A DNA stretch of 32,943 nt from positions 1 to 32,943 of the forward strand of contig JAFCFZ010000007.1 of NCBI GenBank assembly GCA_017608385.1, written 5' to 3'. A program made the translations under genes and the position numbers. Source of the DNA: Candidatus Parvarchaeota archaeon (GTDB lineage: Archaea > Nanobdellota > Nanobdellia > B33-G15). Each line of letters begins with the position of its first letter. The first letter of the stretch is position 1. Shown in pieces: positions 25,055-27,011 of the stretch. The notes under the pieces were generated by a model that worked only from the letters and a program-made list of their open reading frames with translations, was not told the origin of the DNA and did no database searches.

Positions 25055-26155
25055 CTACTTAATAGTTCTTCTTGTGATAATCTTTATTTTTCTGCTTCTG
25101 ACTCTGGAATCCTCTCCAACAATCGATTCCACTGACTTTTTCTCTGCAATCAATACTAGCGTTTTATCTACTATGCCATTAATAACCAATGTTTTCACAT
25201 TGTCTACTCCTTTCAGTGTGTTTTCCAATTCCTTTAATGGAACTCTTCCAAGGATCTCATCGTTTCTTCCTAACAAGTAAGCTCCATTAGTTCCTTCTAA
25301 CTCATCTAATAGCTTTTTGAGTGGACTTGGTTCTCTTTCTCTAGTTATTCTTCCTTTTTTGTCTCTTAGACATAAGTGAATCTCTTTTTTTGTTAATTCT
25401 TCGACTTCTCTTCCGTTTGGAGCTTTTATTACTGACTTAATCTTAACAAAGTTCTTCAACTCTTTAGCAATTAGGTCTCCTCCTCTATCTCCATCAACAA
25501 AAAGAACAACTTGTTTGTTTTTACAAAGCGTAACTATACTTTTTGGAATATTAGTTCCATTAATAGCTATAGCATTTTTAAAACCGTGTTTTAATAGGTT
25601 AATAACATCAGCTCTTCCTTCAACTATGATTATTTCTTCAGCATCAAGTACTTCAGAACCTGCAGGAAGCTTTTCAGGACCATATTCTATGATATTCATC
25701 ACTCTTACTGAATTTTTAACATTATTTGACATTTCCCTTGAGTCTGGAGTTTGCTCATCAATCATTGTTTTCAATAATTGCTTTGCTCTATCTATCACAT
25801 AATCTCTCTTGTTTAGTCTAACGTCTTCTATTTTGTCAACATCAACCTTTGCATCACAAGGACCTATTCTTTCAATAGTTTCAACAGCTGCTCCAACAAT
25901 AGCTGTTTCTGTCTTGTCTAAAGAACTTGGAATTATAATTGTGCCTCTTGTTTTTCCATTATTTGTTTTAAGGTCTACATCTATTCTCCCAATTCTTCCG
26001 CCTTTTTGCAATTCTCTTAATTCTAAATCCTCTCCCAGCAATCCTTCGGTCTGTCCGAATACAGCACCAATTACGTCTGGCTTTTCTACAACACCCTCTA
26101 TGTCTATTTTAGCATATATGATGTACTTTGCTGAAACAGGTGCTACTTTTCCCAT
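25055..26155 (-). CDS. dnaG: Archaeal DnaG (Toprim primase-like, exosome-associated)
   Basis: The 366-residue protein has the archaeal DnaG layout. The N-terminal domain begins KYIIYAKIDIEGVVEKPDVI GAVFGQTEGLLGEDLELREL. The central Toprim domain has Glu179 in IIIVEGRADVINLLKHG and the DxD motif (Asp221, Asp223) in VVLFVDGDRGGDLI. The C-terminal region is DELEGTNGAYLLGRNDEILG. In archaea DnaG is a core-associated subunit of the RNA exosome (it recruits Csl4/poly(A)-specific activity) and has weak primase activity. A run AGGGGGGGT sits five bases before the ATG at 26155 as a strong ribosome-binding site. The upstream gene is another Toprim protein, so two Toprim genes share this unit. Confidence 0.95.
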   Translation of the reverse strand: MGKVAPVSAKYIIYAKIDIEGVVEKPDVIGAVFGQTEGLLGEDLELRELQKGGRIGRIDVDLKTNNGKTRGTIIIPSSLDKTETAIVGAAVETIERIGPCDAKVDVDKIEDVRLNKRDYVIDRAKQLLKTMIDEQTPDSREMSNNVKNSVRVMNIIEYGPEKLPAGSEVLDAEEIIIVEGRADVINLLKHGFKNAIAINGTNIPKSIVTLCKNKQVVLFVDGDRGGDLIAKELKNFVKIKSVIKAPNGREVEELTKKEIHLCLRDKKGRITREREPSPLKKLLDELEGTNGAYLLGRNDEILGRVPLKELENTLKGVDNVKTLVINGIVDKTLVLIAEKKSVESIVGEDSRVRSRKIKIITRRTIK

Positions 26156-26166
26156 AATTACCCCCC

Positions 26167-26511
26167 CTATTCTTTAAGGTTTATTCCTTCTATGTGCGAT
26201 ATTTTCAATCTCTTGGTCGCACTTTGAAATCTTTTATTTATTTGTAAACCCTTGTGGGAAAATTCCTGGAGAAGTTTTTTGAAGATTTTTTTTCCTTCTT
26301 TATCATTATCTAAAAGCAATATCACGCTTTTGTAACTTTCAGCGATTTCTTCAACAAATGAAAATAATGGTTTTTGTGAAAGTGTGTGAATGTTGTGAAT
26401 TCCTAACTTCTCCAAGGCGGCTTTATCTTTCTTGCCCTCTACCACCACTGGTTTACATTTACTTTCTTCGATTAGTTCTTTTATAAAGTCTTCTATTGAA
26501 TCCATGATCAT
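26167..26511 (-). CDS. Small Toprim domain protein, UPF0292-like
   Basis: The 114-residue protein is a stand-alone Toprim fold: KPVVVEGKKDKAALEKLG with the catalytic-type Glu25, and KSVILLLDNDKEGKKIFKKL with Asp68 and Asp70. It ends with a short C-terminal segment (SATKRLKISHIEGINL). It matches the archaeal UPF0292/RNase M5-like small Toprim family. RNase M5 cuts 5S rRNA precursors in bacteria, but the archaeal activity is not established. Its ATG (26511; a second at 26505) comes directly after a structured RNA whose terminal ACA shares its last A with the start codon. dnaG follows 11 bases after its stop. Confidence 0.85.
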   Translation of the reverse strand: MIMDSIEDFIKELIEESKCKPVVVEGKKDKAALEKLGIHNIHTLSQKPLFSFVEEIAESYKSVILLLDNDKEGKKIFKKLLQEFSHKGLQINKRFQSATKRLKISHIEGINLKE

Positions 26512-26567
26512 GTAAGTTCCGCAACCGATCTACTCTTCATGAATCAGAGAGACACCCTTGCGGAACC
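26511..26567 (-). ncRNA. Putative H/ACA-type guide RNA (or structured mRNA leader)
   Basis: On the minus strand a perfect 9-bp inverted repeat, GTTCCGCAA (26566-26558) and TTGCGGAAC (26524-26516), is extended by a G-U pair. It encloses 33 nt. Inside, CTCT and AGAG pair and are capped by tandem G-A pairs around UUCAU (CUGA...GA), a textbook K-loop for L7Ae. Two 8-nt strands, GGGTGTCT and TAGATCGG, are left as an internal pocket. Directly after the lower stem comes TTACA. This order (lower stem, pocket, short upper stem, K-loop, ACA) is that of archaeal H/ACA guide RNAs for pseudouridylation. A TATA-like CTTAAATTTAG lies about 25 bases upstream (near 26590). It could instead be a leader structure of the Toprim gene. 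Confidence 0.55.
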
Positions 26568-26639
26568 AATTAGAAAATATATGAAACTAAATTTAAGCTT
26601 TTCCAAATATTCATAAGTTGTTTCATTTTCTTAATTATC

Positions 26640-27011
26640 ATGACAAAAAAGCTTGAGGTCTACAAATGTAATGTTTGTGGGAATATAATTGAAGTATTAC
26701 ATGAGGGGGCAGGAGAATTGGTTTGTTGTAATCAACCAATGCAACTTCTCCAAGAAAAGACTGAAGATGTTGGAAATGAAAAACATGTGCCTGTGATTGA
26801 AAAAATAGATGGTGGAGTTAAAGTAACTGTGGGTTCTATCCCTCATCCTATGGAGAAGAAACATTTGATCGAATGGATCGAAGTAATTAGTGGGGAAACA
26901 GTTCAAAGAAAATTCTTAGAGTCAGAAGACAAACCAGAGGCCGTTTTCAAAGTTAAGAGAGATGTAAAAGCAAGAGAATTCTGCAACCTTCATGGATTAT
27001 GGACTTCTTAA
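26640..27011 (+). CDS. dfx: Desulfoferrodoxin-type superoxide reductase (two-iron)
   Basis: The 123-residue protein has the N-terminal desulforedoxin domain with the Fe(Cys)4 site (Cys10, Cys13, Cys29, Cys30 in CNVC and VCC). It also has the catalytic neelaredoxin domain: His49 in EKHVP, His69 and His75 in PHPMEKKHLIEWIE, and Cys115 and His118 in EFCNLHGLW. This is a complete 2Fe superoxide reductase. It reduces superoxide to hydrogen peroxide without making oxygen, usual in anaerobes. No catalase, peroxidase or rubredoxin gene is nearby in the window. It is a single-gene plus-strand unit between minus-strand operons, with the ATG at 26640. Confidence 0.96.
   Translation: MTKKLEVYKCNVCGNIIEVLHEGAGELVCCNQPMQLLQEKTEDVGNEKHVPVIEKIDGGVKVTVGSIPHPMEKKHLIEWIEVISGETVQRKFLESEDKPEAVFKVKRDVKAREFCNLHGLWTS

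Follow-up and report, generated by a model that had tools for sequence, protein, structure and literature searches.

A candidate single-hairpin box H/ACA guide RNA for 23S rRNA helix 69 in front of the Toprim and dnaG genes of a Candidatus Parvarchaeota archaeon

Introduction

Guide RNAs for helix 69 of 23S rRNA have been described in several archaea. Examples are Pf7/Pab40 in Pyrococcus, Afu-4 in Archaeoglobus, and HP1/HP2 in Haloferax volcanii, all of which have Ψ1915/Ψ1917 of this helix as their target (PMC2584109). The kind of RNA that we describe here is therefore already known. Our candidate lies in the window, that is, the whole stretch of 32,943 nucleotides that was analysed, and by description it shares with these guides the target helix, the machinery, and the general architecture of hairpin, pocket, K-turn or K-loop, and ACA box. 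In contrast to them, it is a single hairpin of 57 nt that stands before dnaG and is fused to a start codon, and its target is reduced to U1917.

The productive motifs of the archaeal class defined by Toffano-Nioche et al. in 2015 count 10 layers from the pocket-closing pair up to their second G-A pair, and 14-16 nt separate the closing pair from the ANA box (PMC4652768). The window RNA has the same 10-layer stem with G-A pairs and a spacing of 14 nt, but the 3′ side of its pocket measures only 3 nt until pairs of the lower stem open (5-6 nt are typical), and its upper stem contains one bulged U. The H/ACA sRNA of Nanoarchaeum equitans comes likewise from a reduced archaeal genome. It is 159 nt long, is located between the tyrosyl-tRNA synthetase gene and a hypothetical gene, and consists of two hairpins separated by ACA, which by description resembles the two-hairpin forms of Woesearchaeota (PMC3491384). 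In the l7ae leader of Sulfolobus the K-turn or K-loop adjoins the start codon, as it does in the window; however, that leader regulates translation, whereas the window RNA has an rRNA-complementary guide pocket and an ACA box (PMC5539422).

Within a limited search of the literature we found no guide RNA placed before dnaG and none fused to a start codon, and a study of the exosome by iCLIP held no information on H/ACA RNAs.

The hairpin and its genomic neighborhood

The window belongs to an archaeal genome of 0.70 Mb that is 94% complete. The candidate mature sRNA, a single-hairpin H/ACA-type guide according to its fold, descriptor match and target, occupies positions 26511-26567 of the minus strand. 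On the same strand it is followed by the gene of a Toprim-domain protein (26167-26511, a partial match to PRK04017) and then by archaeal dnaG (25055-26155; NF003108, 446 bits), which is the conserved downstream gene. The product of dnaG is an exosome subunit (PMC4227792). A preliminary description of the locus had named both genes in this order, and it had also seen that the ACA box merges with the Toprim start codon. Indeed, the ACA (26513-26511) and the ATG (26511-26509) have the last A in common, and a second in-frame ATG is present at 26505, 6 nt downstream of the first. On the other side, a desulfoferrodoxin gene (26640-27011, plus strand) lies between the FttA-CBS-hypothetical genes and the guide RNA. 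Farther away, at 1820-1923, we noted a tRNA of 104 nt that was missed by ARAGORN and received 50 bits with Rfam; it possibly contains an intron.

Read from 26567 to 26511, the minus strand is GGTTCCGCAAGGGTGTCTCTCTGATTCATGAAGAGTAGATCGGTTGCGGAACTTACA, and TG follows. The lower stem P1 pairs GGUUCCGCAA (26558-26567) with UUGCGGAACU (26515-26524). It was recognized earlier, but as 9 pairs, while we count 10, one of them G-U. The upper stem had been drawn with 4 bp. In the predicted fold it extends to 8 pairs with one bulged U, its 5′ strand being GUCUCUCU (26546-26553) and its 3′ strand AGAG-U-AGAU (26528-26536). The pocket is accordingly not one of 8 × 8 nt, as had been proposed, but of 4 × 3 nt; it becomes larger once the last A-U pairs open, and the last four bases of the 3′ guide strand also take part in P1, beyond the 3-nt pocket.

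The K-loop with tandem G-A pairs is present as first described, and so is the UUACA after it. The loop, GA-UUCAU-GA (26537-26545), is a putative L7Ae site according to its sequence and the published rule (PMC4652768), and the UUACA places an ANA box directly 3′ of the lower stem. Counted from the pocket up to the second G-A pair, the stem has 10 stacked layers (8 pairs plus 2 G-A), and the ACA box (26511-26513) begins 14 nt 3′ of the pocket-closing base, inside the range of 14-16 nt. The minimum free energy of the hairpin is -23.5 kcal/mol (z = -3.3), and only 2 of 200 shuffled sequences were equally stable. A descriptor search had been proposed in the preliminary description. Ours was built on the archaeal H/ACA rules (PMC4652768) and applied to both strands; this hairpin was its single match in the window, and 150 Markov-shuffled windows gave none. 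An Rfam 15 scan returned no match at the hairpin. The window RNA has every sequence feature of archaeal H/ACA guides that we tested.

Genes of the partner proteins were detected in the same genome. Cbf5 (386 bits) and Nop10 gave matches above the cut-off, and L7Ae gave two partial matches below it. The two partial matches (L182, G000:C17:1-234, and L183, G000:C4:10845-11063) cover overlapping parts of the protein family, and one of them is situated at a contig end; they reflect either a broken assembly or two paralogues.

The target site in helix 69

The 16S and 23S sequences for the target search were taken from the organism's own genome. The target predicted in the preliminary description, CCGATCTA-UN-AGACACCC, has no site in either molecule, its register being wrong. 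The first target scans gave no outstanding site because the pocket boundaries were fixed as they had been drawn there; when the upper stem was free to extend, a site in helix 69 emerged. This best 23S site, GUAACCG-U-A-ACCCU, is complementary to both pocket strands on the two sides of the U-N. The 3′ guide strand CGGUUGC (26521-26527, minus strand) forms 7 bp with GUAACCG, 5′ of the target U, and the 5′ guide strand AGGGU (26554-26558, minus strand) forms 5 bp with ACCCU, 3′ of it, at a distance of 14 nt from the ACA. According to the alignment, the site comprises the loop and the 3′ strand of 23S helix 69. The target U is what we take to be U1917 in E. coli numbering, in agreement with the literature (PMC2584109).

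With fixed geometry, the U1917 site ranks first among the 627 uridines of the organism's 23S rRNA. Its score is 30, and shuffled cores matched this score at the helix 69 site with p = 0.0005. A score of 30 anywhere in the rRNAs was reached by 11 of 150 shuffled cores, and therefore the target match is weak or indecisive if taken alone. The 16S candidates scored at most 27, below helix 69, found no support among the relatives and were rejected. Position 1915 (E. coli numbering) is U in the other seven genomes compared and C in the window organism (GUAACCGUAACCC, L010), which is why the target is reduced to U1917; the window guide has a G that matches this C.

Related guides upstream of dnaG

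Homologous loci were fetched with the Toprim protein as the query. Hairpins of the same plan stand before Toprim in family f12 (five genomes), in family f6 (G006, Jingweiarchaeum), and in family f19 (G026), and the order RNA-Toprim-dnaG on one strand is the same in f12, G006, G026 and the window. In G001, too, dnaG lies downstream of Toprim. Wherever the 23S sequence was available, the Toprim-linked hairpin fits helix 69 of its own rRNA. The apical loop of the G006 hairpin lacks a canonical K-turn.

A covariance model made from the f12 and G006 sequences (R1) found further matches in G233, G179 and G124. In all three, dnaG follows the RNA immediately and Toprim is absent from the interval; one more match, in G212 (L067), coincides with the beginning of a coding frame and was dropped. 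Scanning the named genomes with DnaG gave 80 loci, the best-matching dnaG genes coming from Woesearchaeota and other Nanoarchaeia/DPANN records. The second model, R2, comprises 23 sequences, partly from these loci, and it has matches in 76 of the 80, on the same strand and upstream of dnaG. In the 23 relatives 97.1% of the stem cells are paired, with 42 double changes against 9.6 in shuffled alignments; a search for such compensatory changes had been proposed in the preliminary description. The whole-genome search with R2, which was not tied to dnaG, found the RNA in 184 of 378 genomes of the class, or in 144 of 191 if genomes at least 90% complete are considered, and dnaG is directly downstream in 29 of the best 30 matches. 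Rfam 15 gave no match in any of the 16 dnaG-upstream loci scanned.

The distance from the RNA to dnaG is 105-444 nt in the loci measured, and in most relatives no Toprim gene intervenes. The conserved neighbor of the guide RNA is dnaG and not Toprim, which is a lineage-specific insert between the two.

Some relatives have a two-hairpin form of the guide RNA, in contrast to the single 57-nt hairpin of the window. A second H/ACA-like hairpin was seen directly upstream of the helix 69 guide in one group, with L064 (G233), L080, L143, L145, L073 and others. In G233 this second hairpin fits GGGUGU-UC-ACCGAUU better than any other place in 23S (6+7 bp, 15 nt from the ACA; score 31 versus 24 for the next); presumably the site corresponds to E. 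coli U2555 in the A-loop. More conserved structures are located between the guide RNA and dnaG (L132, 2282-2501; also L099, L083, L081, L078, L070, L097, L105 and L137). They include a long stem, AGAACAAG...CUUGUUCU, whose loop motif resembles AUUCAUNAUUAUCAUUCA, as well as a second hairpin, GGAAGCUAU-UAUGUUCAUCA...AUAGCUUCUUC.

If these hairpins are guides for one and the same helix, then we can ask: Do the guide and its rRNA change together? Eight genomes with both the hairpin and 23S rRNA were compared, G124 and G233 being added to the Toprim-linked ones. Helix 69 U1915/U1917 ranks first in five of them, second in two and fourth in one, and in all eight the target is 14 nt from the ACA. The fitted uridine is U1917 in the window genome (G000), G006, G026 and G233, and U1915 in f12 and G124. 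An alternative f12 target, UAGCGCAA-UG-CCUUGC, offers 14 bp; it was rejected because its distance from the ACA is 18 nt and its pairing would disrupt the conserved upper stem.

In a cross table of guides by rRNAs, helix 69 of the window organism pairs 5+7 bp with its own guide and at most 3+1 bp with the guides of other genomes, and the G124 guide GAAUUA fits fully only the UAAUUC of G124. The table is not fully private, since, with G-U pairs counted, the window guide also reaches 5+7 on the helix 69 of G006 and on that of G026. It is the strongest evidence that we have: the guide and helix 69 change together.

The position of the window hairpin within this family is a separate matter. It was not recognized in the R1 search, the R2 search with filters off gave nothing at its position, and a comparison of the hairpin DNA across 37 genomes yielded matches at chance level only. 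Orthology therefore rests on position, geometry and target, and the window copy is a divergent relative by position and target rather than a member by sequence model. One further genome of the family to which the window belongs was available, G001 (88% complete); it lacks a hairpin of this kind before Toprim and has no match to R1 or R2 anywhere. Its Toprim gene comes directly after a hypothetical gene, with no room for the RNA.

Proposed function

We conclude that the hairpin most likely represents an archaeal box H/ACA guide RNA with a single motif, directed at U1917 of 23S helix 69, and we put the probability of this at about 0.87. The H/ACA guide reading of the preliminary description is well supported by the geometry, the rRNA target, the guide-target covariation across families, and the Cbf5, Nop10 and L7Ae-like genes in the same genome. 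All this comes from computation: the fold, geometry, target complementarity and conserved position, the covariation of pairs in relatives and of guide with target, and the presence of Cbf5, Nop10 and L7Ae-family genes.

We infer that the RNA is expressed. It would assemble with Cbf5, Nop10, Gar1 and L7Ae, and the RNP would pair with helix 69 at its loop and 3′ strand, so that U1917 is placed in the active site of Cbf5 and converted to pseudouridine. The window RNA would then be a shortened, K-loop version of the guide that stands before dnaG in many genomes of the class, with a Toprim gene between it and dnaG and its ACA box fused with the Toprim start codon.

Transcription and alternative explanations

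A TATA-like TTAAAT (26591-26596, minus strand) begins 29 nt ahead of the hairpin's 5′ end. TATA-like sites cluster in two zones before the RNA: 24 of 69 loci have them at -34 to -26, and another 28 at -120 to -98, several of these 28 with the second H/ACA-like hairpin upstream of the guide. Altogether 122 such sites were counted before the RNA versus 46.7 expected, and 34 between the RNA and dnaG versus 67.7 expected. As promoter-like sites are found before the RNA and are depleted before dnaG, one common transcript is probable. A promoter of its own is probable for the RNA, and dnaG is probably transcribed from it as well. In the window, the probable promoter lies some 30 nt ahead of the hairpin, and the transcript would run on into Toprim and dnaG; the guide would then need to be released by cleavage or else to function while still at the mRNA 5′ end. 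The earlier suggestion that the guide is trimmed from an mRNA leader thus gains indirect support from the distribution of promoter-like sites, while the processing itself we only infer.

These data bear on the possibility that the RNA has a dual role, in which cleavage of the mRNA leader (of Toprim-dnaG, or of dnaG) releases the guide and the production of the guide and of DnaG, an exosome subunit, is coupled. We give this about even chances, and it is compatible with the guide function rather than exclusive of it. The same-strand order (76 of 80 dnaG loci, 29 of the best 30 genome matches), the excess of TATA-like sites before the RNA with their deficit before dnaG, and the further conserved structure between the two genes all speak for it. 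However, conserved order can last without coupled expression, and dnaG may have a promoter outside the TATA patterns. A more elaborate version is tentative and in our opinion rather doubtful: the guide would be made from a dnaG mRNA leader carrying the further conserved structures, its maturation would be coupled to the supply of DnaG, for example through a feedback of exosome trimming, and in some lineages the 3′ arm or the ACA box would serve also as the start region of Toprim.

Could the hairpin act only in cis? Its K-loop might bring L7Ae, or an H/ACA RNP, to the Toprim-dnaG mRNA at its 5′ end, and translation would be repressed without any need for guide activity. L7Ae of Sulfolobus does repress mRNAs via K-turn leaders (PMC5539422), promoter-like sites occur before the RNA and are scarce before dnaG, and the ACA of the window overlaps the Toprim ATG. 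In f12 the Toprim frame (L013, L014, L016, L017, L019) has no ATG near its start, and its sole in-frame start, a GTG, falls within the hairpin's 3′ arm, which makes the RNA gene and the frame overlap. But a leader has no need of pocket strands that keep pairing with, and vary along with, the organism's own helix 69. Moreover, Toprim is missing from between the RNA and dnaG in most relatives, and 105-444 nt separate these two in the loci measured. A conserved K-turn in the leader of one regulated gene, as in L7Ae leaders, is not what we see here, the Toprim neighbor not being conserved. We regard a purely cis-acting leader as improbable. Since Toprim is a lineage-specific neighbor, control of its translation by L7Ae, which the preliminary description had offered as an alternative, is not the conserved role of the RNA; the ACA/ATG overlap and the GTG in the 3′ arm in f12 make such control possible, in the window among others.

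A chance hairpin, or a functionless remnant of a lost guide gene, is very improbable: the window hairpin does diverge from the model of its relatives and is absent before Toprim in G001, but no descriptor match occurred in the shuffled windows, the complementarity falls on the homologous helix 69 site and follows rRNA-specific changes, and a decaying guide would not retain 12 bp to its own altered target.

Significance

The helix 69 guide represents an H/ACA family without an Rfam 15 match in the 16 loci scanned. Of the genomes sampled from its DPANN class, about half carry it, as do three quarters of those at least 90% complete. It has a clear target in an intersubunit bridge helix, and its guides covary with the rRNA. 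Given its fixed position before dnaG, the gene of an exosome subunit (PMC4227792), it can be tested whether guide maturation and the exosome are linked. The copy in the window, finally, may illustrate how small such a guide can become and how its fusion with a coding gene can arise.
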